DNA of 26,345 nt from a virus. The position numbers were made by a program, and so were the translations under genes. Below are positions 2,851-24,273 of the stretch, piece after piece. A model generated the notes under the pieces. The model had not been told where the DNA came from, did no database searches, and saw only the letters and a program-made list of their open reading frames with translations. The DNA is taken from positions 1 to 26,345 of the IMG/VR virus record IMGVR_UViG_3300050139_000116. One strand, given 5' to 3'. Numbering within the stretch: position 1 is the stretch's first letter; every line of letters begins with the position of its first letter.

Positions 2851-2874
2851 TATAAATACTTTTTAATTTATGTT
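2851..2874 (-). promoter_or_regulatory. Putative phage late promoter, class B (AACAT-N10-GTATTTATA)
   Basis: On the minus strand AACAT is followed after 10 nt by GTATTTATA, 18 nt before the ATG of the adhesin. The same pair occurs before 8442, 20154, 22684 and 24246. It lies in the 58-nt gap after the large terminase. The promoter role is inferred from position and recurrence. Confidence 0.55.
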
Positions 2875-2890
2875 TTTATATGCCAATAAT

Positions 2891-4219
2891 TTAATGTTCA
2901 AAGAATTGAAATTCACCACCATCTTCACCAATTTCTCTATCTGGCAAATATATACCACCTAGTGATTTATTTATCTTTATTGATTCACTAGGTGCGTTTA
3001 TTGATGAATATATATGATATCCCCCTTGAAGCTTATTCTTTAAATATGAATCCCAAGCAATTGCAATCGACATAACTATATCATCATGCCCACTACTTGC
3101 ATGAAACTTTATCTTACCAGTCTTGGTATATTCAAACACAAAACTATTTAACTCAGCCTTCAATTCCTCATTATTTAATACCCTAATCTCCCTAGAACTA
3201 AAAGCTGATATCAATTGATTGATTATATCTGCCTTGCTATCTGATGTTGTTATAAATCCCTTTACATTGGGTATATTCTTTTTTATATGCTGAATAATAG
3301 GTAACCCCTGGTTATTTTCTTCGACCACCAATTCACGTGGCTTAAAGGTTGAATATACCTTCTCTATCCTTTTTATAAGCTCTGGTGCCTCTAATCCACG
3401 TGCTCTATCCATATATACCATCTCACCCTTCTGATTGAATACACTCAAAACATAATAATCTGTCAATAACGCTATATCAACTCCAATATAATAAGTTTCA
3501 CCATAAATTGGCCCATGTTGCTGATTTAATACCGCCAATTCATATATGTTATTGAATACACTATTACTATCAGTCCACTCAGCTAAGAACTCTTGTGCAA
3601 ATATTCCCTCTGGTAAAGATAACTTAAATGTCTCAATCAGAGCTTTATTTGCCAACGGATTATCATAACTATTGAACTTGAATGACTTGTATCCCTCAAT
3701 ATCCTTATTACCCCTTAACCATAATTCATAGAAAAAGTTCTTTCCTTTAGGAGTTGATATTATCAGTATCTTCTTACCAGCAACCGATAAAGACGGTAAT
3801 ATAATCTCTTCTATCGTCTCTTGCTTGATAAAGGCTGCCTCATCTAGTATAAGGAAGTTTACACTACTACCCCTAAGTGTATCCTCAGATGCTGCTGACT
3901 TAAACTCAATCCTAGCACCATTATGCAGTTCAATCATTATATTTCCCTTGGATTGAATCTTATTCTTAATCAGACCTAATGGTTCCATTATAGATACCAA
4001 AGAACGCCATACAACCTTGGATTGACTCTCGGAAGGAGTAACATACCATATAAGGGCTTTCTCGTTCTTTATAGCCCAATTAAGTGTTTGATACTTGGCT
4101 AGTGTTGATTTACCACTTTGACGACCAGCACATACTACTGTCCAGAAATTTGGTGATTTAGGTGAACAAGCTATATGAACTGCTTGTTGATGTTTATGTG
4201 GTGAATAGTTCAGTTTCAT
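2891..4219 (-). CDS. terL: Terminase large subunit
   Basis: This 442-aa packaging motor pumps DNA into the prohead and cuts the concatemer. The ATPase domain shows Walker A AGRQSGKST (31-39), Walker B LILDE (123-127, with catalytic Glu127) and a coupling motif STPKG (155-159). The C-terminal RNase H-like nuclease shows three acidic patches: Asp248 in GVDIA, Glu300 in LVVEEN, and Asp379/380 in GHDD. Length and motif order fit the Terminase_6/6C families. The start at 4219 has no Shine-Dalgarno. The gene is separated from the small subunit by a 46-aa gene and 370 nt of non-coding DNA, which is unusual because the two subunits are normally adjacent. Confidence 0.95.
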   Translation of the reverse strand: MKLNYSPHKHQQAVHIACSPKSPNFWTVVCAGRQSGKSTLAKYQTLNWAIKNEKALIWYVTPSESQSKVVWRSLVSIMEPLGLIKNKIQSKGNIMIELHNGARIEFKSAASEDTLRGSSVNFLILDEAAFIKQETIEEIILPSLSVAGKKILIISTPKGKNFFYELWLRGNKDIEGYKSFKFNSYDNPLANKALIETFKLSLPEGIFAQEFLAEWTDSNSVFNNIYELAVLNQQHGPIYGETYYIGVDIALLTDYYVLSVFNQKGEMVYMDRARGLEAPELIKRIEKVYSTFKPRELVVEENNQGLPIIQHIKKNIPNVKGFITTSDSKADIINQLISAFSSREIRVLNNEELKAELNSFVFEYTKTGKIKFHASSGHDDIVMSIAIAWDSYLKNKLQGGYHIYSSINAPSESIKINKSLGGIYLPDREIGEDGGEFQFFEH

Positions 4220-4592
4220 GGTTATTTAAGTATTTAATTGCTTCTGATAACATCTTTATGTTTATCCCAAATCTCTGTGTTTATTAGTGTTTTAATCATA
4301 TTTTAGCGACTTTTTTACTGTTTATGGTTCTTAAGGGATTACCAAACGTTTGGCTAAATCATTTACGTAATTCGCTTCGCTCTTACGGCCTTCGGCACGT
4401 AATTTCAAAATCGGCTTCGCTCTTACGGCCTTCGGCACGTAATTTCAAAATCGGCTTCGCTCTTACGGCCTTCGGGCTCGTTGTCTGAAGCTTGGCTGTT
4501 CCAAACTTGCACAAGGTCAGCTTTGAAAAGGCACCTGGTATGTACATATATCTAAATCGGTTTAGGACTCTCATCGTTACATTCAACGCTTA
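4220..4592. other. Non-coding stretch between small and large terminase genes
   Basis: No convincing gene lies here. The stretch holds a 12-bp perfect palindrome CCAAACGTTTGG (4342-4353), GC-rich 40-bp tandem repeats (4375-4475) and a 10-bp palindrome TATGTACATA near 4540. Its composition is clearly richer in GC than the surrounding genes. A 67-codon open frame across it reads mostly repeat-derived sequence and is not credible. Position between the terminase genes makes a packaging (pac/cos) site or an acquired host repeat plausible; neither can be decided here. Confidence 0.5.
4375..4475. repeat. GC-rich 40-bp tandem repeat, about 2.5 copies
   Basis: The block beginning CTTCGCTCTTACGGCCTTCG restarts at 4375, 4415 and 4455, an exact 40-bp period. 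The first two copies continue with GCACGTAATTTCAAAATCGG; the third diverges after about 21 nt. Copies are essentially identical, suggesting recent duplication or selection. Confidence 0.85.
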
Positions 4593-4733
4593 TCAAAGCC
4601 ATAACCTCAGAGCCCTAAGTAGGGTTGATATCGGCTCATACACCAGCATCTTACCTATCACATAGATAATCACTCCAAGTATTATAACTGGTATCATCAT
4701 ACATAATCCAACCATTTGAATGAACTTATACAT
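4593..4733 (-). CDS. Small single-pass membrane protein (46 aa)
   Basis: The ATG at 4733 overlaps the last 8 nt of the small terminase gene, so translation is probably coupled. The protein starts MYKFIQMVGLCMMIPVIILG and continues with a hydrophobic stretch to about residue 28, then an amphipathic tail rich in Leu and Arg. This gives one transmembrane helix. No family is recognised. Given its place in the packaging block it could be a virion or lysis accessory, but nothing in the sequence says which. The tight overlap and clear hydrophobic helix argue that it is real despite its size. Confidence 0.6.
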   Translation of the reverse strand: MYKFIQMVGLCMMIPVIILGVIIYVIGKMLVYEPISTLLRALRLWL

Positions 4734-5223
4734 TGGATTCTTCTGATGTCTTATCATCGGAGATGTTCCCCAAAGGAGTTATATCTATGAAGCTGGTATC
4801 ATCGGGGTCAAACCCGTTGAAATCAAGCTTCTGACTTATCTGTATGTTGGTCACGGTCTTATCATGGTTGTAATAGCCCATCATCTTATTGAGCATATCT
4901 AACACTTCTACCTGGTATTTGTAGTTCTTATCGGCTTTGGCTTGGTCTAATAGAACCTTTAGTTCTTGTACTACCAGGTGTTTCGGTACATGAGCCAGGT
5001 GTTTTAATTGAGATGAGAGGCTGGCAATTGATGCTTTCACTTCTGGTTGCTTTAATAATCTATAACCATTAGAAGATGCAGTACTCTTATTTTTTACCTT
5101 ATATACAGCCATATAAGCATCTGGTACTGACATATTTTTAATAAGCATATTATCAATAAATGCTTGTTGTTTATCATTAAGAACTGATTCTTTTTCTTCT
5201 ATTTTAGTTACTTTATCACTCAT
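4726..5223 (-). CDS. terS: Terminase small subunit
   Basis: A 165-aa DNA-recognition subunit of the packaging machine. The N-terminal signature LNDKQQAFIDNML (15-27), followed by a helix-turn-helix-like segment with PDAYMAVYKVKNKSTASSNG and a third helix RLLKQPEVKASI, is typical of the Terminase_2 family. The middle (about 75-115) is helical and would form the oligomerisation core. The acidic C-terminus probably contacts the large subunit. The ATG overlaps the stop of the upstream homing endonuclease gene (ATGA at 5220-5223). A second, divergent copy of this N-terminus is fused to that endonuclease. Confidence 0.88.
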   Translation of the reverse strand: MSDKVTKIEEKESVLNDKQQAFIDNMLIKNMSVPDAYMAVYKVKNKSTASSNGYRLLKQPEVKASIASLSSQLKHLAHVPKHLVVQELKVLLDQAKADKNYKYQVEVLDMLNKMMGYYNHDKTVTNIQISQKLDFNGFDPDDTSFIDITPLGNISDDKTSEESNV

Positions 5224-5903
5224 TTCAATCGATTTTTTTCTCTTGTTTCACAATATTGTTTTACTATTTCACTAGTTTCTTTTGTTAATCCTTTATTCCA
5301 AGGAGCTCTACCTATTAGTTTATGAACTTTTTTATAAGACTTTTTAAATTCTTCCAATCGTTCATCAGCTAATTCTTCAAGTGTTTTACCAGTTATATAT
5401 GGTTTTCTACCAACGTTAGCTTTTCTCATCTTATCAAGAGTTTGTTCTGAATGTGGTTTTCTATTCTTCTGTGATTGTTTCATTTTATTCCTAGTATCTA
5501 AACTAGGTTTACATCCAGAATACATACCAATTCCACCATTATCTAAGTTAACAAGTTTAAAACCCCAAGCTTTTAATTGTGATATCCAATACATTTCTAA
5601 CTGATAGGCCATATCTTCTGTTAAATCTATCTCAATTTTTTCAGAATAGAATCCATATTTATTAACATAGTTATTCCAATAACCACTTCTACCATGAATA
5701 CTATTTAATCTACTTTTAGAACCCTTTCCAACATAAAAAGGTATATTAGTTATGGGATTATAATGAATATATACATAAAATTTATTTGTCATATTGATTG
5801 TTTTGTTTTTCAAACCATCAACAATAATCTTATTAACAAAGGCTTGTTGTTTGTCAGTAAGTTTAACGGTAGCTGTTAAGCCTGTGTTAGTTGTTTCTTC
5901 CAT
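5220..5903 (-). CDS. GIY-YIG homing endonuclease with a small-terminase-like N-terminal extension
   Basis: The 227-aa product has a GIY-YIG nuclease domain (about 41-125): VYI at 44-46, YVGKG at 57-61, Arg65 and catalytic Glu103. A NUMOD3 DNA-binding motif follows (PHSEQTLDKMRKANVGRK, about 150-167). Residues 1-37 are foreign to this family. They read LTDKQQAFVNKII at positions 15-27, co-linear with the small terminase downstream (LNDKQQAFIDNML, same positions). The nuclease alone could start at the internal Met38 (ATG 5792). The element probably inserted into a small terminase gene and left part of one copy fused in frame. It spreads by cutting related phages that lack it. Confidence 0.88.
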   Translation of the reverse strand: MEETTNTGLTATVKLTDKQQAFVNKIIVDGLKNKTINMTNKFYVYIHYNPITNIPFYVGKGSKSRLNSIHGRSGYWNNYVNKYGFYSEKIEIDLTEDMAYQLEMYWISQLKAWGFKLVNLDNGGIGMYSGCKPSLDTRNKMKQSQKNRKPHSEQTLDKMRKANVGRKPYITGKTLEELADERLEEFKKSYKKVHKLIGRAPWNKGLTKETSEIVKQYCETREKNRLK

Positions 5904-8445: not shown

Positions 8446-8468
8446 TATAAATACGATAATAAGATGTT
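8446..8468 (-). promoter_or_regulatory. Putative phage promoter, class B (AACAT-N9-GTATTTATA)
   Basis: On the minus strand AACAT and GTATTTATA are separated by 9 nt (10 at the other four sites), directly before the 63-aa gene. It would drive the ATP-grasp, HAD and terminase genes. It sits between the sigma-like gene stop at 8471 and this start. Confidence 0.5.
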
Positions 8469-8470
8469 TT

Positions 8471-9055
8471 TTATGTTAAACCTTCACGTCTAATCTTTTT
8501 CTTTAGTTTTTTTTTAACTTTATTAAATGTATACCAAATTGAATAACCTTTGATATTGATATCTTTAGCCAATTCGTTGCAGTATTTATCTGAATAGGCA
8601 ACCAATTCAAAGATTTTCTTTTCATAATAGGTCATTTTATCCAGTTCTTTATTAACCAAGTTGTTTAAAGCTTCTACATCCCAATCCTGTCCATTATCGG
8701 AAACACCATTATCTATATTAATATTGGATATGTCATCAGATAGTTTATTTATCTTGGTGTTATATTGACGGCTATATGGGCTTGTTGATAATAAGAATTG
8801 TTTCTTGATAATCATGAAGATGAACCATTTAAGTTTTTTATTGGTATTAAGGTCGATTATAAGGCTTTCTGGTTTTTCTAATAGGTATAAATAAGTCATT
8901 TGTAATAGGTCATCTATATTAGATGATTTACAGAATCGTTCAATTTCCTTTCTCATTTGTTTATCTCTGGCAAAAGCATCAATAATCTGATTTTTTGTAT
9001 GTGCTGAGACATAAAATCCAGGAGTCGAATTAGTTATATTATTCTTATAATTCAT
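8471..9055 (-). CDS. Sigma-70-like RNA polymerase sigma factor
   Basis: 194 aa. A region-2-like block (about 46-90) reads NIDDLLQMTYLYLLEKPE, matching the helix that binds the beta' clamp in sigma factors. It is followed by basic/aromatic residues suited to -10 recognition. A region-4-like block (135-190) begins NKELDKMTYYEKKIFELVAY, then has a recognition helix in KGYSIWYTFNKVKKKLKKKI. The linker is short, as in small ECF-type factors. It would redirect host RNA polymerase to phage promoters. It is the most diverged of the three sigma-like genes here. Its stop lies just before the class B promoter of the next unit. Confidence 0.65.
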   Translation of the reverse strand: MNYKNNITNSTPGFYVSAHTKNQIIDAFARDKQMRKEIERFCKSSNIDDLLQMTYLYLLEKPESLIIDLNTNKKLKWFIFMIIKKQFLLSTSPYSRQYNTKINKLSDDISNINIDNGVSDNGQDWDVEALNNLVNKELDKMTYYEKKIFELVAYSDKYCNELAKDINIKGYSIWYTFNKVKKKLKKKIRREGLT

Positions 9056-9382
9056 TTATAGATATTTAGCTTTTAATTCTTCATCAATAGCTTTGATTTC
9101 TTTCTTAAGGCTATTCTTATACATACTCTTACTTAATTTAATATAGTGGTCAATTTCGGCTTTATGAGCTTTATTGATGGTTTCGGCAAATAAAAAAAAT
9201 TCACCATCAACAGCTTCTTTTAACCATTTATAATAAACTGTTAATGATTCTCTAACATCAGCCAATAATTCTTCTTGATTGATGGTAGCGGTTAATAATG
9301 ATATCAAGAAGAAATCATTATTATCTTCATTTATACCTTCGCAATAATTTACAAAGTCATATAGGTTTCTAATTTTTTGCAT
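9056..9382 (-). CDS. Hypothetical protein (108 aa)
   Basis: An acidic N-terminal half (YDFVNYCEGINEDNNDFF) and a Lys-rich helical C-terminus (KKEIKAIDEELKAKYL). Helical throughout by composition. It lies between a 48-aa coiled-coil gene, with which it shares one base (TAATG), and the sigma-like gene two bases downstream. That arrangement would suit an anti-sigma or sigma-partner role, but no family supports this. Function unknown. Confidence 0.55.
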   Translation of the reverse strand: MQKIRNLYDFVNYCEGINEDNNDFFLISLLTATINQEELLADVRESLTVYYKWLKEAVDGEFFLFAETINKAHKAEIDHYIKLSKSMYKNSLKKEIKAIDEELKAKYL

Positions 9383-9528
9383 TATTTGGTTGATTCTTTA
9401 TATTCCCCTTCACTACCAATATCAATTGATGGAAATTCTCTTATCATCTTTTCCATGTGTCTTTGTGTTTCTTTAAGTTGTTCTATTTGAGCTTTAATCT
9501 TGTTGATTGTGTCTTGTAATTCATTCAT
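9382..9528 (-). CDS. 48-aa coiled-coil microprotein
   Basis: ATG 9528 lies 4 nt after the stop of the PD-(D/E)XK-like gene, and its TAA shares a base with the next ATG. The first 30 residues, beginning MNELQDTINKIKAQIEQLKE, form heptads with I/L at core positions, giving a clear coiled coil. The tail is short and acidic. The exact fit between two genes argues that it is real. Function unknown; a dimeric regulator or structural clip is possible. Confidence 0.55.
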   Translation of the reverse strand: MNELQDTINKIKAQIEQLKETQRHMEKMIREFPSIDIGSEGEYKESTK

Positions 9529-9532
9529 GGTA

Positions 9533-10114
9533 TTAAATATTTAATATATCTTTCTTATTTTTTGGGTAATGGTATTTAAAAATAGTTTTTGCATTAAAAG
9601 ATAGTTTATCGTAATCTAAAATAAAGTCTATTTTTTGTCCATCAGTTACTTTTAAATATACCACTTCTTTATCAACATACTCTTCTTCACCATTAACACT
9701 TTTGTTTTTTAATTTATCCACTATAAAATCACTAGGTTTAATCTTAGTAAGGTCCCATATCATAATACAGTCATAAAAGAATACAATAAATCTTGGTTTA
9801 AGGGCAATATGACTAACTATACGACCTTCGATTGAATTGGTGAGAGCATCATATTTTGTTTTTTCAAGTATCCATTCACCAGTTCTACCACCAAGCGTTT
9901 CAGTTGAATAGTGTTTTCTGACCTTTAATTCACCGATACAACGGCTATTATGGTCAGAATAGATTACATCCCAACTATCGTTGGATTCTTCATCAGTTGT
10001 CATATGAGCTTGATAGTTCATATGGTTTTCCAATTCCTGGAACGCCAGACGTTCTCTTATTCCATAATATATATACGCTACGTCTTTTTGTCTTAGTGTT
10101 TTAATTTTTCCCAT
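9533..10114 (-). CDS. PD-(D/E)XK nuclease-like protein
   Basis: 193 aa. The core shows WDVIYSDHNSRCIGELKVR (48-66), in which Asp49 and the Glu62-x-Lys64 pair match the D...ExK active site of restriction-endonuclease-like folds. Next come WILEKTKYDAL, a strand RFIVFFYDCIMIWDL and a mixed C-terminal part, an arrangement common in this fold. It may cut host or competitor DNA, process replication intermediates, or serve as a Holliday-junction enzyme; the sequence does not decide. It heads a minus-strand unit under a class A element and faces a divergent plus-strand gene. Confidence 0.55.
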   Translation of the reverse strand: MGKIKTLRQKDVAYIYYGIRERLAFQELENHMNYQAHMTTDEESNDSWDVIYSDHNSRCIGELKVRKHYSTETLGGRTGEWILEKTKYDALTNSIEGRIVSHIALKPRFIVFFYDCIMIWDLTKIKPSDFIVDKLKNKSVNGEEEYVDKEVVYLKVTDGQKIDFILDYDKLSFNAKTIFKYHYPKNKKDILNI

Positions 10115-10131
10115 ATATATTGGTTGTTTAT

Positions 10132-10157
10132 AATAAATATGCAGCTTTATTAAAAAA
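10132..10157 (-). promoter_or_regulatory. Putative phage promoter, class A (TTTTTTAATAAA-N5-ATATTTATT)
   Basis: On the minus strand a T-run with AATAAA lies 5 nt before ATATTTATT, 17 nt upstream of ATG 10114. The arrangement resembles sites before 11706, 13301 and 14770. The last base of the ATATTTATA core is T rather than A. Confidence 0.4.
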
Positions 10158-10178
10158 CCTGGATTTGTTGAAAATAAA

Positions 10179-10210
10179 TTTGATTTCCTGGATAAATATT
10201 AGTATATTTG
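10179..10210 (+). promoter_or_regulatory. Bacteroidetes-type vegetative promoter
   Basis: TTTG (10179-10182), 20 nt, then TATATTTG (10203-10210) exactly fit the Bacteroidetes -33/-7 consensus. The ATG at 10215 is only 4 nt after the -7 box, so the transcript would start at or next to the start codon (leaderless). Confidence 0.75.
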
Positions 10211-10214
10211 TAAC

Positions 10215-10679
10215 ATGGAAAAAGTAGGAACAGAATATTCAATAGATTTAGATATCTTATCGTGTAGTGCTGGTACAGTAAATAGACACCATTGTAAAGC
10301 CTTTTATATACAATTGGGAGGTTGGATGGATATAAGTGATGTAGAAGATAAAATAGTTGTTCTGAGACGATTTAAAAGCTATTTAAACAATAGTATACGT
10401 GCTATTGCATTTGATATTCATTCTGATTCTTTATATACCTTTGTTGATATGGATATTCCAGAGAATTTAGGTCTTACCACCAATACTGGTTTTTTTAGTA
10501 TTGAGACTACTATTATGCTTAAAGAGCCTATAAAAAACTTTAGAACTGATATAGCATTAGAAGCCAATATCAAGGCATTTGGTGGATTGGTTGAGGGGAT
10601 GTTGGATAAAGTTGAGGGGATGTTGGATAAATTTGATGATATACATGTATCAAAACGTAAGTTAGCTAAGGTTATTTAA
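10215..10679 (+). CDS. Hypothetical early protein (154 aa)
   Basis: A lone plus-strand gene behind a host-type promoter, so probably expressed on entry. The body (10-110) looks like a compact alpha/beta domain, with short strands such as SIRAIAFDIHSDSLYTFVDM. Near the C-terminus a seven-residue unit VEGMLDK is repeated (residues about 126-139), encoded by a 21-bp tandem duplication. Its last 18 bases overlap the end of the convergent sigma-like gene. No family recognised; takeover or anti-host functions are typical of such positions but unproven. Confidence 0.6.
   Translation: MEKVGTEYSIDLDILSCSAGTVNRHHCKAFYIQLGGWMDISDVEDKIVVLRRFKSYLNNSIRAIAFDIHSDSLYTFVDMDIPENLGLTTNTGFFSIETTIMLKEPIKNFRTDIALEANIKAFGGLVEGMLDKVEGMLDKFDDIHVSKRKLAKVI
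10590..10631 (+). repeat. 21-bp tandem duplication
   Basis: GTTGAGGGGATGTTGGATAA plus one more A occurs twice back to back (10590-10610 and 10611-10631) without a mismatch. It adds seven residues to the C-terminus of the 154-aa gene. Perfect identity suggests a recent event. Confidence 0.9.
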
Positions 10680-11165
10680 TTCTTTATATTGTTTTTTAAG
10701 TAGTCTTTTTATTTTTTGAAGTCTAAAATCAATAACCTTTAGCGTTACACCTAATACACTGGCCATATAAGGTCTAGTCCATTTTCTCCAATAAAGGAAT
10801 CTAATTAGTGCTTTATCCTTAGGTGGTAATTCATTTATAAGTCTTTTTTTAATCTGGTCGCTTTCACCATTTTTATCTTGATATGATGCTGATATTAAAT
10901 CTAATCCATAAACTATCATTTTTACCTTTTTACCTTTTTGGCGTTCAAATATTCTAAATATCTGGTTACGTATTGTTAAAAACATATAACCCTTATATTC
11001 TTCATAATTATCACAAGGTACTTTACCTTGATTGAATTTCTCCAGGAGTTTTATAACTGCATTATTTAGGCAAGTTTGGCGTTCATGGTTATTTATCTTA
11101 TACCATCCAGGTATAACCTTGGCCAAATTTTTAATTTCTTTCTGATAATCTTGTAATGGTTTCAT
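10662..11165 (-). CDS. Sigma-70-like RNA polymerase sigma factor
   Basis: 167 aa. A region-2-like segment (30-80) includes CLNNAVIKLLEKFNQG, then YEEYKGYMFLTIRNQIFRIF and a basic patch ERQKGKK. A region-4-like segment (108-158) starts INELPPKDKALIRFLYW and has the helix-turn-helix RPYMASVLGVTLKVIDFRLQ. This is the layout of ECF-type factors without region 3. Its start lies 35 nt inside the end of the upstream sigma-like gene, so the two are made together. Its 3' end is convergent with the 154-aa gene. Confidence 0.65.
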   Translation of the reverse strand: MKPLQDYQKEIKNLAKVIPGWYKINNHERQTCLNNAVIKLLEKFNQGKVPCDNYEEYKGYMFLTIRNQIFRIFERQKGKKVKMIVYGLDLISASYQDKNGESDQIKKRLINELPPKDKALIRFLYWRKWTRPYMASVLGVTLKVIDFRLQKIKRLLKKQYKELNNLS

Positions 11166-11706
11166 AATTCTTCTTTAAAACTTTTTTAATCTTATTTAAT
11201 CTAAGTCTGATTGTTTCTCGTACAACACCATGTTTTTGACCTAATTCATTTAGAGTCATTTTTTCAAAATAATGGTCCATTATTAGGTTTCGGTCATCTT
11301 CATCAGTAAGTGCATTTATAGCCATTCTAAGACACTCTATGTGTGTTTGGTCCTCTTCTACCTCGTTGGCTATAAAGTCTTCTAAAATGGCTCCATTTTC
11401 ATCCACAGGGGTATTGGTTGATACGGTCTTGATTAGGTTTTCTTGACCTATCATTTTTGATGGTGTTCGGATTGTGTTGGAATTAAGCTTTAAAAAGCTA
11501 TTCATACGGTTTCTTATAGCAGTTGAGATATAAGCCCACCAACTGCCTTTGCCATCATATAGCTTTGAAGCATGCCAAATAGCGATATAACCTTCTTGTT
11601 CCAAGTCTTTTGTAGTTTCTTCGTCTTGGTTATAACGTTTAGCTATTTTTAGAATATATGCTCTATATTTTGTTGGGTCGAATTGGTCCCTGTTAACTAT
11701 GCTCAT
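11131..11706 (-). CDS. Sigma-70 family RNA polymerase sigma factor
   Basis: 191 aa and the clearest sigma in the window. Region 2.2 reads DLEQEGYIAIWHASKLYD (34-51). Regions 2.3-2.4 follow with SWWAYISTAIRNRMNSFLK (55-73), aromatic residues suited to melting and -10 contact. Region 4 (131-178) reads ALTDEDDRNLIMDHYF, then the helix-turn-helix TLNELGQKHGVVRETIRLRL. It would bind host core RNA polymerase and direct it to phage promoters. It is first in its minus-strand unit, 3 nt after a class A ATATTTATA element. It may therefore control its own promoter class. Confidence 0.85.
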   Translation of the reverse strand: MSIVNRDQFDPTKYRAYILKIAKRYNQDEETTKDLEQEGYIAIWHASKLYDGKGSWWAYISTAIRNRMNSFLKLNSNTIRTPSKMIGQENLIKTVSTNTPVDENGAILEDFIANEVEEDQTHIECLRMAINALTDEDDRNLIMDHYFEKMTLNELGQKHGVVRETIRLRLNKIKKVLKKNYETITRLSERN

Positions 11707-11709
11707 GTA

Positions 11710-11735
11710 TATAAATATAGTGATTTATTAGAAAG
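11710..11735 (-). promoter_or_regulatory. Putative phage promoter, class A, before the sigma operon
   Basis: On the minus strand CTTTCTAATAAATCACT precedes ATATTTATA, which ends 3 nt before ATG 11706. AATAAA lies at the same offset from the ATATTTAT core as in the site before 10114. Confidence 0.4.
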
Positions 11736-12037: not shown

Positions 12038-12122
12038 TCAATAGGACCCTCATTTAGGTTCAATAGGACCCTCTCATAGGGTCCAGCTGGACCCTCAACT
12101 GGGTTCAATAGGACCCTCATTT
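12038..12122. repeat. Iteron-like array: TCAATAGGACCCTC repeats plus an 18-bp palindrome
   Basis: TCAATAGGACCCTC starts at 12038, 12060 and 12105. Between the last two lies a perfect palindrome AGGGTCCAGCTGGACCCT (12078-12095), whose right half supplies a fourth GGACCCT. The four cores start at 12043, 12065, 12088 and 12110, at intervals of 22, 23 and 22 bp, placing them on about the same face of the helix. Confidence 0.8.
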
Positions 12123-12156: not shown

Positions 12157-12187
12157 TTTGACTTTTATCATACTTTTAGTATATTTG
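12157..12187 (+). promoter_or_regulatory. Bacteroidetes-type vegetative promoter for the plus-strand operon
   Basis: TTTG (12157-12160), 19 nt, TATATTTG (12180-12187). Transcription should start near 12193, giving a leader of about 120 nt before the likely start at 12313. The repeat array and an inverted repeat lie immediately upstream. Confidence 0.75.
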
Positions 12188-12267: not shown

Positions 12268-12312
12268 TAAAATAAGATGGTAAAAATAACAATAAGGAAT
12301 AAAAATAAACAA

Positions 12313-12933
12313 ATGAAAACAACAACAAAATCAAACTTCGTACCACTTTATGATGCCATATTAGCATCTAAGAATCTAAATTCAACTCAAAAAATATTTA
12401 TTAGTATTGTACTTAGATGGCAAGCTACTGGTAAAATATGTAAAGAAACCAATCAATCTTTGGCACAAAAAATGGGTATGGAAATGCAAGGTATTAAAAC
12501 TCTAATCAAGAGAATGAATAAATTACCATTCTTTACTTCAATTTCTAAAGATTCAGAAAAAATCAAAGGTGGTTATATTTCAAGACATGAGATAACTATT
12601 GATAGAGCTAAGTTAAATGATTATTTAACAGCAGTTATTGTTAAAGAACCTGTGGTTAAAAAAAACAAGGTAAAAGAAAAATCAATAATAACACCATCAA
12701 CTCAAAAAATAGGTTTAGATGAAGATGTTAATTTATATACACTGTTACCATCAATAGGTTTTGAATTTGATGATGTTAATATTATAATAGAAGAAATGGA
12801 TGGTAGTACCGTTACATTTAAAGATTTAATATCATGTATAACAAAGTTTAAAAAAGAGGTTCAATATGCTGATTATGAAGGTCCATCAATAAATAATAAT
12901 ATTATTAACAATTTAAAACAATTATCTAAATAA
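12313..12933 (+). CDS. Winged-helix DNA-binding protein, possible replication initiator
   Basis: 206 aa from ATG 12313; an in-frame ATG at 12277 would add 12 residues. 12313 is preferred because AATAAACAA precedes it, like the A-rich context of neighbouring starts, and the first 12 residues are low-complexity. Residues 10-75 look like a helix-turn-helix/winged-helix domain (LNSTQKIFISIVLRWQ, then NQSLAQKMGMEMQGIKTLIK as recognition helix). The C-terminal half is acidic and unrecognised. It is first in the early operon, just after an iteron-like array, so it may bind those repeats to start replication or control its own promoter. Replication initiator is inference only. Confidence 0.6.
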   Translation: MKTTTKSNFVPLYDAILASKNLNSTQKIFISIVLRWQATGKICKETNQSLAQKMGMEMQGIKTLIKRMNKLPFFTSISKDSEKIKGGYISRHEITIDRAKLNDYLTAVIVKEPVVKKNKVKEKSIITPSTQKIGLDEDVNLYTLLPSIGFEFDDVNIIIEEMDGSTVTFKDLISCITKFKKEVQYADYEGPSINNNIINNLKQLSK

Positions 12934-12934
12934 C

Positions 12935-13258
12935 ATGGAATCTAAAGAAGCACAAGATTTAAGACTTAAAGAAATGCAATTTGATTTTGAAAGAGAAAAA
13001 TCATTAGATGAATCTTTATCAGTTCTTCAACGTTCAATACTTGCTACCACACATTATTGGTGTATTAGATATGGTTTCTATGGCTTTTATAAAACAAAAG
13101 TTTATAAGGATTATGAATCAGTCCATACCAAGAAAGAAATTGATGAAGCTATTGATAACTTATTAAAAAGAGACTATTTAAGAAAAGATACCAAGTTAAT
13201 TACTTATAATGGTAGATATTCTACACAAGTAAAACTATATGTAGAAGAATATTTTTAA
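12935..13258 (+). CDS. Hypothetical, possibly winged-helix protein (107 aa)
   Basis: Starts one base after the previous stop. It has a charged N-terminal helix, then SVLQRSILATTHYWCIRYGF. The C-terminal half (SVHTKKEIDEAIDNLLKRDY, followed by a beta wing ending QVKLYVEEYF) resembles a winged-helix domain. It may work with the preceding DNA-binding protein. No family assignment is certain. Confidence 0.55.
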   Translation: MESKEAQDLRLKEMQFDFEREKSLDESLSVLQRSILATTHYWCIRYGFYGFYKTKVYKDYESVHTKKEIDEAIDNLLKRDYLRKDTKLITYNGRYSTQVKLYVEEYF

Positions 13259-13270
13259 AAATAAATTGGC

Positions 13271-13296
13271 GTTTTACCAAAAGCTACATATTTATA
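13271..13296 (+). promoter_or_regulatory. Putative phage promoter, class A
   Basis: GTTTTACCAAAAGCTAC directly precedes ATATTTATA, which ends 4 nt before ATG 13301. The distance from GTTTTA to ATATTTATA (17 nt) is the same as at 14731-14756, and the flanking AAAATAAA and TGG-G bases are also shared. Confidence 0.45.
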
Positions 13297-13300
13297 TTAT

Positions 13301-13669
13301 ATGAACAAAGAATTAGAATATATTAAAAAGAAGAAGTTAACTGAAAAAGAAACATTTCTATTTTATATAGATATTGGTTATAAACCAAAAGAGGCATTAT
13401 TTAATATTAAAGGAACTTTTTCAACACCATATGAACAACTATGTGAATGTATAAAAATACTTAATGAAGGTTGGTACCCTAATTGGAACAACCAAAATGA
13501 ATACAAGTATTGGATTTATTTCACATTAAACGGTGGTTTCTCGTATAACAATGTGACTTATCGCAATACTTCTGCGCATGTTCCATCGGCCCTTTGCCTA
13601 AGAACTGAGGAACTTGCTAACTTAGCAAGTAAAATATTATTACCATTGTATGAACAAGTTTATAAATAA
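13301..13669 (+). CDS. Hypothetical protein of a type common in Bacteroidetes phages (122 aa)
   Basis: The N-terminal 50 residues are helical and charged. The C-terminal part has a conserved-looking block LNEGWYPNWNNQNEYKYWIY, followed by an aromatic/Gly segment and SALCLRTEELANLASKILLP. I recall similar WxPNWxxxxxxKY...LCxxxEELA proteins as hypotheticals in Flavobacterium phages and prophages; their role is unknown. Bases from about 13535 to 13620 are richer in G and C and use different codons from the neighbours, so this domain may have been acquired recently. Confidence 0.65.
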   Translation: MNKELEYIKKKKLTEKETFLFYIDIGYKPKEALFNIKGTFSTPYEQLCECIKILNEGWYPNWNNQNEYKYWIYFTLNGGFSYNNVTYRNTSAHVPSALCLRTEELANLASKILLPLYEQVYK

Positions 13670-13694
13670 CAAAACACTAAAAAAAATAAACAAA

Positions 13695-14144
13695 ATGAAA
13701 GAAATAGAAAAAGAATTAAGAGAAAAATTTACTGGTAGTAATAATGCATTTAGAACACCTAAAGAATTTAGAGATTTGTTTAAAACAAAAAGAACAAAAC
13801 AAATAGAATTAAGTCAAAAGATTCTTGATAAAAATACAATTTTATTTAAAGAAGAATTAGCTAAGATTAACAGTAATAATGAATATACATTTATTAGATC
13901 ATCTATTGATGCTGACCCCTATGATGATACAATACCTTTAAAACACGTATATAGAATAAAATGGGGTGAGTATTTGTTTTATTTATTCTATGCTGAATCT
14001 AAAGAAATATTTTATAGTATTATTAGTGAAGAACTTGAAGAACAAAAAAAAACTGCTATTAGACAAATTAAAATTTTAACCTTTAAAGAACAAATTTCAA
14101 CACCAGAAGGACTAATAGAATTTATTAAAGAAAATATTAAGTAA
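13695..14144 (+). CDS. Hypothetical protein (149 aa)
   Basis: ATG 13695 is preferred over an upstream ATG at 13650, which would overlap the previous gene, because AAATAAACAAA precedes it as in other starts here. The protein is Lys/Glu-rich and helical at both ends (MKEIEKELREKFTGSNNAFR and a C-terminal Glu/Lys helix). In the middle is a likely beta section RIKWGEYLFYLFYAESKEIF. It abuts the next start with no gap. No family recognised. Confidence 0.55.
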   Translation: MKEIEKELREKFTGSNNAFRTPKEFRDLFKTKRTKQIELSQKILDKNTILFKEELAKINSNNEYTFIRSSIDADPYDDTIPLKHVYRIKWGEYLFYLFYAESKEIFYSIISEELEEQKKTAIRQIKILTFKEQISTPEGLIEFIKENIK

Positions 14145-14411
14145 ATGACAAATGAAGTAGTAGAAACCCTTAAAAAGATTGGTGAAGAATTTTCTAACGA
14201 AATTGTAACCTATAATATAAAACTCATTAAAACACTTGAAGAAGAACAATATGAAGAATCTGCACGTTTAAGAGATGAAATAGAATATCTCATTCAACAA
14301 ACAACCTTTTTATTCGTTAGTATTGGTGGCCTTGAAAAAGAGAGAATTTTAAACCATTTCAAGGAGCAAGACACATATGTTAAAATGAGATTAAATGAAG
14401 AAAATAAATAA
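14145..14411 (+). CDS. Hypothetical protein with UVR-like motif (88 aa)
   Basis: The segment LEEEQYEESARLRDEIEYLI (about 31-50) follows the UVR motif of UvrB/UvrC and related regulators (charged helix with A-x-x-LRD-x-I). The rest is helical. In UvrB/UvrC this motif mediates protein pairing. A role in repair or in binding a host Uvr protein is possible but not shown. Its stop shares a base with the next start (TAATG). Confidence 0.55.
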   Translation: MTNEVVETLKKIGEEFSNEIVTYNIKLIKTLEEEQYEESARLRDEIEYLIQQTTFLFVSIGGLEKERILNHFKEQDTYVKMRLNEENK

Positions 14412-14719
14412 TGATAAATCAACCTAAAAAAGCTGAAACTGATTTTACTGAAGAACCATTCCAAGTGGTAATACAACCAGCTCAGATGCCTCATATGTTG
14501 CGTTTAACGTATTCAAAGAAGAAAGGTGGTAAACTACTTCAAATGGAAGAAATCAACGCTAATGAAGAAGTATTAGGGTTATGTACCTTCAAGGGTAAAT
14601 CTGGTAGTGGTTCTAAATGTGATTGGATGATAGAAGTTAAGAGAGCTTATTCTGGAATGAAAGCTACAGATTGGGTGATAAGCGGTCTTTATGTTGACCA
14701 ATATTACAAAAAACATTAA
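14411..14719 (+). CDS. Hypothetical protein (102 aa)
   Basis: One-base overlap with the preceding gene. It looks like a small beta-rich domain, with alternating hydrophobics in HMLRLTYSKKKGGKLLQMEE and in CDWMIEVKRAYSGMKATDWV. Nothing else in the window resembles it and no family is recognised. It is the last gene of the first plus-strand unit before a second set of promoters. Confidence 0.5.
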   Translation: MINQPKKAETDFTEEPFQVVIQPAQMPHMLRLTYSKKKGGKLLQMEEINANEEVLGLCTFKGKSGSGSKCDWMIEVKRAYSGMKATDWVISGLYVDQYYKKH

Positions 14720-14730
14720 AATAAAATGGT

Positions 14731-14756
14731 GTTTTAATAAAATACTAATATTTATA
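14731..14756 (+). promoter_or_regulatory. Putative phage promoter, class A
   Basis: GTTTTAATAAAATACTA directly precedes ATATTTATA (14748-14756). It lies 13 nt before a 13-codon frame and about 60 nt upstream of a separate host-type promoter, so the following genes could be read by two polymerase forms. Confidence 0.45.
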
Positions 14757-14769
14757 ATAAACAAAGAAA

Positions 14770-14811
14770 ATGGAAAAATTTTATTATAATCTCAAAAGTA
14801 AACAAATATAA
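14770..14811 (+). CDS. Possible 13-aa leader peptide
   Basis: ATG 14770 follows AACAAAGAAA, the usual start context here, and encodes MEKFYYNLKSKQI before TAA. It sits between a class A element and the -33 box of the next promoter. It is too short to be sure it is translated. Confidence 0.25.
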   Translation: MEKFYYNLKSKQI

Positions 14812-14817
14812 AATAAA

Positions 14818-14849
14818 TTTGGTAGTATCAATTAAAATACGTACCTTTG
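14818..14849 (+). promoter_or_regulatory. Bacteroidetes-type vegetative promoter
   Basis: TTTG (14818-14821), 20 nt, TACCTTTG (14842-14849), an exact match to the -33/-7 consensus. Transcription should start near 14855, leaving a leader of about 15 nt before ATG 14871. Confidence 0.75.
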
Positions 14850-14870
14850 TACTCAGAAACTTAAACAAAT

Positions 14871-15065
14871 ATGAAAACAGCAAAAGAAATACATGATGAA
14901 CTTCCAAATGATATGGTAGAACTGATTATAATAGGTCAGAGTTATTCTAGAAAAAATCCTAATTTAGATGAATCAAAAGTCTTTAATCAAATGATGGAAT
15001 CTGAAACAGCTAATCTAATAGGTCTTAAATCAATAGTAGCATTATTAATCTTTAAAAACAACTAA
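14871..15065 (+). CDS. Hypothetical small protein (64 aa)
   Basis: First gene after a host-type promoter, with AAACAAAT before the ATG. The sequence is an acidic/amphipathic helix set (AKEIHDELPNDMVELIIIGQ) with a hydrophobic end LKSIVALLIF. Not recognised. Its position as the first product of an early promoter makes it a candidate host-takeover protein, by inference only. Confidence 0.55.
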   Translation: MKTAKEIHDELPNDMVELIIIGQSYSRKNPNLDESKVFNQMMESETANLIGLKSIVALLIFKNN

Positions 15066-15066
15066 T

Positions 15067-15171
15067 ATGGAAAACGAAGTAGATTACTCAATTATATCAA
15101 ACTTAACACCAGAAGAACTGGAGGCTTATTTCACTAACCTTAAAATACAAATAACCTATGAAAACCATTAA
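15067..15171 (+). CDS. 34-aa acidic microprotein
   Basis: ATG 15067 lies one base after the previous stop, and the gene ends 14 nt inside the next gene. The peptide, starting MENEVDYSIISNLTPEELEA, is acidic and helical. The tight packing with both neighbours is the main evidence. Function unknown. Confidence 0.5.
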   Translation: MENEVDYSIISNLTPEELEAYFTNLKIQITYENH

Positions 15172-15661
15172 ACTATTGATTTTAACCCTTGTATTGGGAG
15201 GGTTTATATCTTGTAAAAAACAAGCAGTTATAACTCCATCAAAAATACAACAATCAGTTCATATAACCAATTTAGTAACTCATACATTGGTTATTAAATA
15301 TAGTTATACGCCTAATTCAACATCTATTTTAAATTATTCTGGGTTTACACTAACCCCTAATAAATATGGTAATAATGAATATGTCCAAAATTATCCAGGA
15401 AGTCTTCATCCTTTAACTTGGAATGATACAATTAATAATAAAATTTTTAAGGATTCACTTCAATTACAACCAAATCATTTTATGGAAATAATAGGGGGTC
15501 TTGTTGTTGGTGATACTATTTATTCTGGAATTGGCTTTTCAGAACCAATTCAACAAATTCAACCAGTAATACAAAGTTGGTATTTAGATGGTGTATTTAT
15601 TGGTTCTGATACAAATATAAACCGTTCAACTCAACAAGGAAGAGTTATTCCAATACATTAA
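15158..15661 (+). CDS. Phage-encoded lipoprotein
   Basis: 167 aa. The signal peptide has a basic start, a hydrophobic core LLILTLVLGG and a lipobox ending FISC, so Cys19 would be lipidated after cleavage by signal peptidase II. The residues after Cys are KKQAV, without the acidic lipoprotein export signal of surface lipoproteins, which suggests the periplasmic face. The mature part is Asn/Thr/Ser/Pro-rich and beta-like (HITNLVTHTLVIKYSYTPNS). Phage lipoproteins made early often block superinfection by masking receptors or DNA entry. That role is plausible here but unproven; host-derived cargo is the alternative. Confidence 0.7.
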   Translation: MKTIKLLILTLVLGGFISCKKQAVITPSKIQQSVHITNLVTHTLVIKYSYTPNSTSILNYSGFTLTPNKYGNNEYVQNYPGSLHPLTWNDTINNKIFKDSLQLQPNHFMEIIGGLVVGDTIYSGIGFSEPIQQIQPVIQSWYLDGVFIGSDTNINRSTQQGRVIPIH

Positions 15662-15664
15662 AAT

Positions 15665-15856
15665 ATGACAACAAAAAGCATACAAATCGAAATTTGCAAA
15701 CACTTAAACTTGATTTATAATCATCTTGATAAGATTAATCAACTAAATAACCTATTAAAAGATGAATCTAAACCTCTAAAAGAATTGGATGATTCTAATC
15801 TAATAGTAGGAACTTTTACAATTGCTGATAATGATGACAACACATATTCACTTTAA
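15665..15856 (+). CDS. Hypothetical small protein (63 aa)
   Basis: Starts 3 nt after the lipoprotein gene. A helical Leu/Asn-rich N-terminal half (ICKHLNLIYNHLDKINQLNN) and an acidic C-terminal tail. Its last 26 nt overlap the next gene in another frame. Not recognised. Confidence 0.5.
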   Translation: MTTKSIQIEICKHLNLIYNHLDKINQLNNLLKDESKPLKELDDSNLIVGTFTIADNDDNTYSL

Positions 15857-16301
15857 ACAAACACCATCTAAACTGATAATCACTTATACAAAAGGTAGTA
15901 TCAAAATAACCATCACTAGCTCACCTAAGGAGCTTTTGAAGGTTTATGGTCTTACAGCATCGCAAATATGTTTGGATAGCTTAAAAATGATTATAAAAGA
16001 TAATAAACTATGTATACTTAAGTCTTATAATTTAGATAGTACAGTAGAAGAATGGACAACCATTAATGGTAAATTCACCTTCAAGAAAGAAGATAATCTT
16101 ATTATATGTGTTAATAATGCTGATACAGGTGATTATATCTATCTAAAGGATAAAGATTTAAAAGGTAAGAATAGATATAAACTTACCAGTAAAGAGTATA
16201 TTAAACTTAAAAATATTAAAAATGCGGAGAAAGCTGCCAATATGATATTGGCAGATAATATCAATTTGAATTTTGATTTAAGCCAAGGGCTTGAAATATA
16301 G
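15831..16301 (+). CDS. Hypothetical protein (156 aa)
   Basis: ATG 15831 (or 15834) is chosen; the frame is open to a TTG nine bases upstream. The protein is beta-rich at first (KLIITYTKGSIKITITSSPK) and Lys-rich and helical later (KLTSKEYIKLKNIKNAEKAA). It is the only identified gene in the window that ends in TAG. Its 3' end overlaps the convergent endolysin gene by 24 nt. No family recognised. Confidence 0.55.
   Translation: MMTTHIHFKQTPSKLIITYTKGSIKITITSSPKELLKVYGLTASQICLDSLKMIIKDNKLCILKSYNLDSTVEEWTTINGKFTFKKEDNLIICVNNADTGDYIYLKDKDLKGKNRYKLTSKEYIKLKNIKNAEKAANMILADNINLNFDLSQGLEI
16234..16254. repeat. Perfect hairpin CTGCCAAT-ATGAT-ATTGGCAG
   Basis: An 8-bp perfect stem with a 5-nt loop inside the last codons of the plus-strand gene, just before it meets the convergent endolysin gene. 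No clean U-run follows on either strand. It may stall or stabilise converging transcripts. Confidence 0.5.
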
Positions 16302-16760: not shown

Positions 16761-16940
16761 CTAATACTGTAGTAATTAATTTGTTATTTTATTACTTACT
16801 TACTTATCTTTGTTATTTATATTGATTATATTTAAACTAGTATATATTTTAATATTGCAAAATTACTCTTTTTTTCTGACAATAGCAAGTTTCTAAAGAT
16901 AAAAAATACTAATTTAGTGATAATCAATTTAATTAAATTG

Positions 16941-17011
16941 TAGCAAAAGAAGGACTCGAACCTTCAATTAAGGGTTATGAGCCCTTTGTGATACCCTTTC
17001 ACTATCTTGCA
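16941..17011 (-). tRNA. tRNA-Met (CAT), initiator-like
   Basis: 71 nt. Acceptor TGCAAGA/TTTTGCT (6 of 7 paired), D stem GTGA/TCAC, anticodon stem AAGGG/CCCTT with loop CTCATAA, variable loop AATT, T stem GAAGG/CCTTC with loop TTCGAGT, discriminator A, no encoded CCA. The first acceptor pair is a T-T mismatch, and the anticodon stem ends in three G-C pairs next to the loop. Both are hallmarks of initiator tRNA. The D-stem pair T11-A24 is more elongator-like. An Ile tRNA with modified CAU anticodon is the other option. It lies 6 nt downstream of the second holin-like gene. Confidence 0.85.
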
Positions 17012-19725: not shown

Positions 19726-20154
19726 TTAATAGGTTTTAAAAAAGATATTATTACCAGTATTACCAGTAAAATAGATGTAATTATTTGTTGTATTAGGTTT
19801 ATAAAAGACTCTACCTTCACCAACCAATCCAATTGTTTGTGTTGGGTTAAGATTGTCTCTTGTTGTTTGTTCATATATTTTATATAACCAAAAATTACCG
19901 TTGCTTAGACTTATAGTACCACCTGTTAAATTGGTATAAGTAGAACCAGTTTCAATAATATTGAATTGGTCATAACGGGTTCTTGCTGATATATCAGCTA
20001 TGTTATCAGCAACAAAATAGATTGATTCATTCGTACTTTCACTTGTGAAATTAAAAAGAAAATAAGGCGTACTTGAAGAAAATACCCAAGATTGACTATT
20101 AACTGTAAGGTCCAAATATATATTATTATTACTATCTTGTGCTATATTAATCAT
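19726..20154 (-). CDS. Hypothetical virion-associated protein (142 aa)
   Basis: First gene of the portal unit, 3 nt before the portal start, with its own class B promoter. Almost entirely beta and Asn/Thr/Ser/Tyr-rich (SWVFSSSTPYFLFNFTSEST; later NGNFWLYKIYEQTT and YIYFTGNTGNNIFF). No cysteine and no signal peptide. This is the look of a capsid decoration, tail or neck protein. No family recognised, so only the structural role is inferred from composition and neighbours. Confidence 0.5.
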   Translation of the reverse strand: MINIAQDSNNNIYLDLTVNSQSWVFSSSTPYFLFNFTSESTNESIYFVADNIADISARTRYDQFNIIETGSTYTNLTGGTISLSNGNFWLYKIYEQTTRDNLNPTQTIGLVGEGRVFYKPNTTNNYIYFTGNTGNNIFFKTY

Positions 20155-20170
20155 AGATTGATGCTTCTTA

Positions 20171-20194
20171 TATAAATACCATTTTATTTATATT
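20171..20194 (-). promoter_or_regulatory. Putative phage late promoter, class B (AATAT-N10-GTATTTATA)
   Basis: On the minus strand AATAT (AACAT at other sites) lies 10 nt before GTATTTATA, 16 nt upstream of the start at 20154. It sits just downstream of a terminator, so the portal unit has its own start of transcription. Confidence 0.5.
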
Positions 20195-20260: not shown

Positions 20261-20824
20261 TTAAATAGAGATTATACCTGGAATTACACTAGCTGCAACT
20301 TCTAAGTTTGGTACTCTTTCAGATGCTGAGAATACAAGTGAATATCCATTGGTATCACCGAAGGCTTTACCTGGACCACTAGTAGAATCCATCATATCAA
20401 CACCATTAGATGATGAAGGTGATGTTCCAGTACCATCAGTACCAATAAGCCAATATTGACCATTTCTATCTTCAGCAATAACCAATAATTTGGTGTTTGC
20501 AAGCAAGACCATTTGGTTTCTTACAGCTGTTGAATATTCTGATAAATATAAATTGATTGTAGTTTCAAACGAAGTAGTACCGTTGGTAGCACTTGCATGA
20601 GGAACCTCAGAAAAATCTGAACCTTCTTTAGTTAAATCAAAGGTATAAAATTTACCAGTATTAATTGTTAAACCTGTAATTTGGTTTGTTGCATTTAATG
20701 TATAAGTTACATTTTCTGCTGTATTTGTACCACCTGTGAAGAAATTCGCTATGAACATTCTTCTGACACCTGGCATAAAATTTTTACATGGAAGTGGTAA
20801 ACCACTTGTTAATGAACATGACAT
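20261..20824 (-). CDS. Probable major tail tube protein
   Basis: 187 aa, isolated between two terminators, as expected for a single highly expressed virion gene. It begins MSCSLTSGLPLPCKNFMPGV. Beta strands and glycine turns follow, and a typical late segment YSLVFSASERVPNLEVAASV ends in a hydrophobic strand. This resembles the small tube-forming proteins of Bacteroidetes siphoviruses, whose rings stack around the tape measure. A capsid accessory or minor structural protein is the alternative; naming rests on size, fold impression and position after the capsid gene. Confidence 0.55.
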   Translation of the reverse strand: MSCSLTSGLPLPCKNFMPGVRRMFIANFFTGGTNTAENVTYTLNATNQITGLTINTGKFYTFDLTKEGSDFSEVPHASATNGTTSFETTINLYLSEYSTAVRNQMVLLANTKLLVIAEDRNGQYWLIGTDGTGTSPSSSNGVDMMDSTSGPGKAFGDTNGYSLVFSASERVPNLEVAASVIPGIISI

Positions 20825-21979: not shown

Positions 21980-22684
21980 TTAGAAATTCTTAAAGATGTC
22001 TTTAACATCAATAGGTTTCATGTTATTATTTTTAATTTTTTTAACATCTACCTTAGAAAAGGTTTCAGTTGTTTGTTTAGTTGTATCAGCAAGTGTTTTA
22101 TTCTTTGCTTTGTATTCTTTTTTCCAATTTTCTAAATATTCACCAGCAGTTTGTTTACCAGTTCTTTCAGCTTTGAAAACTTCTGGAGCAGCTGCTGAAT
22201 TCATTTTTTCAACACTCATTTTGGTTGCTGAAACAGCATCTTCTAATGCAGAAAGTCTGTCGGTAATATTCTTGATTATTTCAATCATAGTACCCATATC
22301 ACCATCTCCGTCAGCATCTGGAGTTGCAGTTGCCACTGGTGGTACTGCATCAGCCATAGTGGCTGGAGCATCTGATGTTGGATTAGCAGCAGTTGTATCT
22401 GGTGCTGGAGCAGCAGCAGTTGTATCTGCTGGAGTTATTGATTCAACAACACTTGATTTGATAACTAAAGAGCTACCATCTTCAAGTGTATAAGGACCAT
22501 CTGGAGCTGGAGCCGAAGTTCCATCTTCTGAAATAAGAACAACTTGAGAACCTGTTTTAAAGGCATCATCAGTTGTTCTTAGAATACTGCCATCAGCAGC
22601 TTTAGCATCAAGGAAGGACTCCTTTTTTACTAGTTGAAACAATTCAACAAGTTTTTCTTTTATACTTTTCGTATTTTTACTCAT
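21980..22684 (-). CDS. Head scaffolding protein
   Basis: 234 aa from ATG 22684. The frame is open to 22762, but the extra codons cross a promoter-like element and enter the protease gene, so the later start is right. The N-terminus is Lys-rich and helical (TKSIKEKLVELFQLVKKESF). The middle is Ala/Pro/Thr/Asp-rich, a flexible linker. A coiled coil follows (MIEIIKNITDRLSALEDAVS), and the C-terminus is basic (KKIKNNNMKPIDVKDIFKNF), as scaffolds use to grip the capsid protein. It would be removed by the neighbouring protease during maturation. Confidence 0.75.
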   Translation of the reverse strand: MSKNTKSIKEKLVELFQLVKKESFLDAKAADGSILRTTDDAFKTGSQVVLISEDGTSAPAPDGPYTLEDGSSLVIKSSVVESITPADTTAAAPAPDTTAANPTSDAPATMADAVPPVATATPDADGDGDMGTMIEIIKNITDRLSALEDAVSATKMSVEKMNSAAAPEVFKAERTGKQTAGEYLENWKKEYKAKNKTLADTTKQTTETFSKVDVKKIKNNNMKPIDVKDIFKNF

Positions 22685-22714: not shown

Positions 22715-22738
22715 TATAAATACAAGTCTGGTTATGTT
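22715..22738 (-). promoter_or_regulatory. Putative phage late promoter, class B (AACAT-N10-GTATTTATA)
   Basis: On the minus strand AACAT, 10 nt, GTATTTATA, lying exactly in the gap between the protease stop (22740) and the scaffold start (22684). It would drive scaffold and capsid genes at high level. Confidence 0.6.
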
Positions 22739-24249: not shown

Positions 24250-24273
24250 TATAAATACTTATTTTTTGATGTT
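24250..24273 (-). promoter_or_regulatory. Putative phage late promoter, class B (AACAT-N10-GTATTTATA)
   Basis: On the minus strand AACAT, 10 nt, GTATTTATA, ending 3 nt before ATG 24246, so this transcript would be nearly leaderless. It sits between the tape measure stop and the 274-aa gene. Confidence 0.6.

Follow-up and report, generated by a model that had tools for sequence, protein, structure and literature searches.

Sigma-like genes and phage-specific promoter-like sites point to staged transcription in a putative Bacteroidota phage

What would a phage do with three sigma-like genes within a few kilobases of one another? The question is raised by the IMG/VR virus record IMGVR_UViG_3300050139_000116, which was analysed over its whole length of 26,345 bases (the window) and which carries on its minus strand three open reading frames (ORFs), here called S1, S2 and S3, that an earlier note on this DNA had described as sigma-70-like genes. 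The ORFs lie where that note had placed them, and S1 and S2 overlap by exactly the 35 nucleotides (nt) it had given (11131-11165), in different frames:

11131-11706, minus strand: S1, sigma-70 family, regions 2 and 4; proposed middle sigma factor
10662-11165, minus strand: S2, sigma-like, region 4 in common with S1; partner, decoy or second middle sigma factor
8471-9055, minus strand: S3, sigma factor resembling the extracytoplasmic function (ECF) type, of a terminase-linked phage family; proposed late sigma factor

Our answer, held with slightly better than even confidence, is that these genes serve a succession from host sigma-A to S1 (with or without S2), then to S3 and then to the late genes, all on host core RNA polymerase. 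The sigma folds, the phage-specific promoter-like sites before late operons (class A, below) and the conserved place of S3 upstream of the terminase genes make such a staged programme the best reading. The earlier note had likewise proposed a staged programme on borrowed host polymerase, and this part of it stands; its ranking of the three genes does not.

Searches against Pfam and PHROGs identified phage proteins encoded in the window, including TerS, TerL, a portal and an endolysin, and the portal shares 28% identity with its counterpart in Nonlabens phage P12024L, which was isolated from a marine Bacteroidota host. A tailed phage of a Bacteroidota host is the best explanation of the window, a view that shares the confidence of the model as a whole, a little above even. 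The record is probably a fragment of a phage genome, and the count of three sigma genes applies to its 26,345 bases only. The minus strand carries late-type genes, the plus-strand cluster spans 12277-16301, and the terminase genes follow S3 on its own strand:

4726-5223, minus strand: terS (Terminase_2, E = 2.2e-9)
2891-4219, minus strand: terL (phrog_2, E = 1.2e-49), downstream of S3

As a single sequence, S3 matched a sigma PHROG at E of about 0.01 and stayed under the Pfam cut-offs, and single-sequence searches found no relatives of S3 or TerL in viral contigs, nor of S3 or a capsid candidate among INPHARED phages. A portal-based scan yielded 80 related viral loci. Iterated S3 profiles detected homologs in related phages, among them gp35 of P12024L, itself above the Pfam cut-off for Sigma70_r2. 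When viral contigs were scanned again, this time with part of the S3 family, 261 relatives were reported and 80 of them retained; a search of genome contigs with the family, by a pattern that reaches close relatives only, found none. Two first-pass hits (L058 and L068) were rejected after they disappeared from the iterated profile, and a second phrog_1740 match in G021 was rejected as an acidic low-complexity ORF. The family is present in 96 fetched loci (some records in overlapping copies), and in all 47 loci with both genes the S3-family member precedes terL at a distance of 0.8-7.6 kb and shares its strand. The earlier note had ordered the three genes by decreasing clarity with S3 weakest, a ranking that came from single-sequence reading and that the family overturns: S3 is a member of a conserved family, and S1 and S2 are accessory genes.

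An alignment of 22 family members matched ECF sigma region 2 in the Protein Data Bank (PDB; 1h3l, E = 2.5e-4), and 8 of the 22 match Pfam Sigma70_r2 at E <= 0.01. The earlier note had suggested structure prediction as a check, and the alignment-based model of S3 matches sigma factors at both of its domains. This model (mean predicted local distance difference test score, pLDDT, 71) has helical domains at residues ~17-91 and 123-194 joined by a low-confidence linker; a fold from the single sequence was poor (pLDDT 45) and was discarded. In VIA-align, 49 of the 50 matches listed for the model are sigma factors. It superimposes on region 4 of E. coli sigma-E with a Z-score of 10.8 (71 residues, 1.8 Å) and on M. 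tuberculosis SigL with a Z-score of 9.8 over 154 residues. Over ~150 residues of SigL or sigma-E the root-mean-square deviation is high because the two domains are differently placed, and the low whole-chain template modelling scores (~0.33) are consistent with this. Fold matches in BFVD include phage ECF sigma factors, such as that of Cronobacter phage GAP52. On the family alignment and the model, S3 is an ECF-type sigma factor with a predicted architecture of region 2, a flexible linker and region 4 only.

Tandem sigma-like genes also occur elsewhere: in three related loci an S3 ortholog is followed by a second, divergent copy.

L133, 9471-10067: second sigma-like gene, with a 22-nt overlap with the S3 ortholog
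L136, 4921-5517: second sigma-like gene, with the same 22-nt overlap
L141, 9471-10067: second sigma-like gene, with the same 22-nt overlap

S1 passes the Pfam gathering cut-offs for both Sigma70_r2 (E = 6.5e-11) and Sigma70_r4 (E = 1.2e-6), matches the sigma PHROG phrog_351 (E = 1.5e-22) and sigma factors in the PDB, and keeps an intact region 2.2 signature, DLEQE, when aligned with the S3 family; by its sequence it is a member of the sigma-70 family. S2 falls under the curated Pfam cut-offs (Sigma70_r4_2, E = 0.0013) and matches phrog_1740 (sigma) at E = 2.7e-4 over residues 6-162. Its C-terminus is 39% identical to region 4 of S1 over 59 amino acids (E = 2e-7), and its region 2 aligns only weakly. 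The description of all three genes as sigma-70-like thus holds for S1 by Pfam and for S3 by family and model, whereas S2 is tied to S1 by region 4 and lacks the region 2.2 signature. A two-subunit scheme of the SigO/RsoA type, in which regions 2 and 4 are divided between two cooperating proteins, was compared: S1 by itself has both of these regions, and a degenerate region 2 is seen in S2 only.

No relative of S1 or S2 was detected in the related phage loci examined with tools that reach mainly close relatives, nor of S1 in 38 S3-bearing or related whole records. Single-sequence searches gave none for either gene in viral contigs or INPHARED phages and none for S1 in genome contigs; as such search patterns reach close relatives only, this absence is weak evidence.

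The earlier note had raised the idea of a decoy or antagonist among the three proteins, for which S2 is the specific candidate. In an alignment with S1 and the S3 family, region 2.2 of S2 reads TCLNN in place of the D/Q/E signature, where the S3 family has EDIVQE and S3 itself DDLLQM, with D and Q kept. Residues of this motif touch the core clamp in studied sigma factors, so S2 may be impaired in core binding. S2 might then be an antagonist or partner and not a sigma factor, keeping region 4, binding class B DNA (below) or S1 and damping or modifying the middle tier. The closeness of its region 4 to that of S1 fits such a role, as does the 35-nt overlap, which suggests coupled expression by co-translation; however, the remainder of its region 2 (KGYMFLTIRNQIFRIFERQKGKK) is sigma-like, the sigma PHROG match spans most of the protein (residues 6-162), and sigma factors with poor motifs can still bind core. 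We consider this role for S2 somewhat unlikely. A lone plus-strand gene inside the sigma cluster (10215-10679), whose 3' end overlaps S2 by 18 nt, has no Pfam family match above cut-off; it may have an early anti-sigma or antisense role.

The sites that S3 may read share the pattern AA(C/T)AT-N9/10-GTATTTATA (class A). The box GTATTTATA occurs six times in the window; five of the occurrences are minus-strand sites just upstream of a gene, and in every one of them AACAT or AATAT stands 9 or 10 nt ahead of the box:

24250-24273, minus strand: class A, box 12 nt before the ATG at 24246
22715-22738, minus strand: class A, 39 nt before the ATG at 22684
20171-20194, minus strand: class A, AATAT variant, 25 nt before the ATG at 20154
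8446-8468, minus strand: class A, beginning 2 bp behind S3, box 12 nt before the ATG of gene 8442, leading towards terS and terL
2851-2874, minus strand: class A, 27 nt before the ATG at 2832 (tail-fibre-like gene)

Against these five sites, the fitted pattern occurred at most once in any of 500 whole-window shuffles, and the score of an unsupervised bipartite search was equalled in 7 of 500. Class A, one of two motif classes in the earlier note, is confirmed; the second, class B, is tentative and consists of a related box, ATATTTAT(A/T), with a T-rich or AATAAA stretch upstream. Host-type candidates complete the set:

11710-11718, minus strand: class B, tentative, box 12 nt before the ATG of S1
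10132-10140, minus strand: class B, tentative, before gene 9533-10114 and the gene run ending with S3
13288-13296, plus strand: class B, tentative, 13 nt before the ATG at 13301
14748-14756, plus strand: class B, tentative, in the gap 14720-14870
10179-10210, plus strand: Bacteroidota sigma-A type site (TTTG/TAnnTTTG), leader of 0 for gene 10215-10679
12157-12187, plus strand: host-type promoter-like site upstream of the plus-strand cluster (from 12277)
14818-14849, plus strand: host-type promoter-like site before gene 14871

In the programme we propose, host sigma-A would read the TTTG/TAnnTTTG promoters of the plus-strand early genes. S1, possibly with S2, would form an intermediate tier on class B sites, found upstream of the S1 gene and of the gene run that S3 closes. 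S3 would then read class A and turn on the structural and packaging genes, the first being the operon directly behind S3. We infer these sigma-promoter pairings from position, and the order of the tiers and the binding of core are likewise proposed.

S3 could instead be the sole working late sigma factor, with S1 and S2 as accessory regulators (host or superinfection functions) or recent acquisitions and with no middle tier. The weakness of class B and the apparent lack of S1 and S2 in related phages favour this simpler scheme, as does P12024L, where one S3-type gene belongs to an operon that has its host-type promoter at 20451. Yet S1 and S2 share the strand of S3 and sit 1.6 kb upstream of it, and class B boxes precede both S1 and the S3 gene run, before neither of which a host-type promoter was found in the window. 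We regard a sole late sigma factor as unlikely. Because the window has no detected host-type promoter at these two places and P12024L has one before its S3-type operon, the comparison suggests that a tier has been inserted in the window between host sigma-A and the late sigma factor.

The distance from box to start codon carries further information. In three S3-bearing relatives (P12024L, G033 and G021), 11 of 13 gene-adjacent sites have a distance of exactly 12 nt between the first base of the box and the ATG. P12024L carries AAAACA-N15/16-CGTTAATA upstream of five genes or operons, that of the portal among them, with the C of CGTT exactly 12 nt before the ATG in all five; the motif is present in no genome shuffle, and its unsupervised score was reached in 0 of 300 shuffles. 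In G033 the box is CGTTATA(C/T)T, with three copies 12 nt and one copy 13 nt before the ATG; in G021 it is CGATATAT, at 12 nt in three cases and at 31 nt before one doubtful short ORF. In the window, two of the class A sites show the 12-nt spacing, as does the class B box upstream of S1, and the other three class A sites lie at 25-39 nt. The S3-bearing contig L178 carries a highly conserved GTATGTCAAATTTTTTGTTTATATTATA at 1345, 1797, 10666 and 11024 (plus strand), with CTAACCAA before the ATG at three of them, and this may be another phage-specific promoter-like motif. Candidates dismissed as mostly coding or local duplication were TACAAGAG in the L127/L133/L088 clade and CAATTGA in G034.

In flavobacteria, the -7 box of sigma-A spans -12 to -5 (PMC9723704; PMC6847099), and a CGT -10 box has been attributed to an ECF sigma factor (PMC9723704). 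If the phage boxes, with their 12-nt distance, stand in the register of this -7 box, +1 falls at the ATG, and late mRNAs are predicted to be leaderless wherever the box lies 12 nt before the ATG. The alternative that ATG-adjacent boxes are translation-initiation signals or base composition, in keeping with their fixed distance and with Bacteroidota mRNAs that lack a Shine-Dalgarno sequence, use an A-rich upstream context and have bS1 near -12 to -15 (PMC6847099), is the less likely one and in our estimate improbable, because the box differs among phages, is accompanied by a second element at a nearly constant distance upstream and persists in the window at 25, 27 and 39 nt from the ATG with that same element.

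Several results weigh against the staged programme. The class A pattern came from a fit to the window itself, which is why the unsupervised search was also run; GTATTTATA alone is not significant among upstream 9-mers, an equally frequent 9-mer occurring in ~23% of shuffles; the window does not pass an unsupervised positional 5-mer test (25 of 300); and the upstream element is ~4 nt nearer the box than in P12024L. De novo tests gave most other S3-bearing contigs no significant motif of their own. Host-type sites in the window are not above chance in number (5 versus 3.2 expected), the scan found none before S1, and region 2 of S2 is degenerate. As a broader and more tentative proposal, which we think possible rather than probable, these phages would form a lineage with a terminase-linked ECF-like sigma factor, -10 boxes locked 12 nt before the ATG and leaderless key late mRNAs, into which the window's phage has inserted an extra S1 tier and a partner, S2, impaired in core binding.

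Other features of the window were recorded alongside. A GIY-YIG/NUMOD3 homing endonuclease gene (5220-5903, minus strand) lies directly before terS, and LTDKQQAFVNKIIV near its N-terminus resembles LNDKQQAFIDNMLI of terS, as if it had been inserted into or fused with a terS copy. The 505-nt gap between terS and terL (4220-4725) holds three GC-richer 40-nt tandem repeats (4369-4488); a comparison of the 4.2-4.7 kb gap with Rfam gave nothing credible even with a permissive threshold, and the sole Rfam match in the window is a tRNA-Met (CAT) gene amid the late genes (16940-17011, minus strand). Repeats of GGACCCTC and GGTTCAATAGGACCCTC occupy 12044-12118, where S1 and the plus-strand cluster diverge. 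The tail-fibre-like protein (1-2832, minus strand) has many short SHAEG-type repeats reminiscent of YadA-like head repeats.

Transcription control is little described in Bacteroidota phages. If the proposal is true, -10 boxes become readable, which would make it possible to predict late genes and their start sites in many phages that have not been cultured. Leaderless late mRNAs would stand out, given that only ~5.5% of mRNAs are leaderless in these hosts (PMC9723704). The terminase-linked family is also a natural set for studying shifts in sigma promoter specificity, and the core claim is directly testable because P12024L is an isolated phage.

The earlier note held that phages usually carry no sigma gene or one, and a survey of 4,350 phage genomes agrees, with none in 86.6%, one in 11.7%, two in 1.1% and three in 0.7% (PMC9429907). 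Three sigma factors in one phage is therefore rare yet already known. SPO1 and SP10 are much larger Bacillus phages. They have middle (gp28) and late (gp34) sigma factors and a sporulation-like third (PMC9429907). The window resembles them in its three phage sigma-like genes and in its proposed middle and late tiers on host core; of the elements of an SPO1-type cascade, it has three sigma-like genes, supported class A sites, tentative class B sites and a pairing deduced from position. Unlike in SPO1 and SP10, the three genes lie within 3.3 kb of a 26-kb record, S3 is ECF-like and terminase-linked, and none of the three was identified as sporulation-like.

Phage 7-11, related to phiEco32, has one sigma factor, and its middle and late motifs were found computationally at low copy number (PMC4331800). 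A phage sigma factor with computationally found, low-copy motifs is common to these phages and the window, but phiEco32 and 7-11 are enterobacterial podophages with one sigma factor and an anti-sigma factor, and their motif, TGATGT, has not been shown to be ATG-locked. P12024L shares with the window an S3-family gene (gp35) upstream of terL and a bipartite motif of its own before structural genes; it differs in having no detected S1 or S2 counterpart, a host-type promoter for its S3-type operon and CGTTAATA as its box. The late promoter of T4 is a single TATAAATA box, read without region 4. By comparison, the window's box is bipartite and its coding strand reads TATTTATA; a T4-type late promoter was rejected for this sequence, which corresponds to TATAAATA in reverse complement and is paired with an element upstream. 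In T4, gp55 acts as a phage late sigma factor on host core (PMC9429907). What is new here is a family of ECF-like sigma factors linked to the terminase in Bacteroidota-type phages, together with phage-specific boxes locked to the ATG and the addition of S1 and S2.

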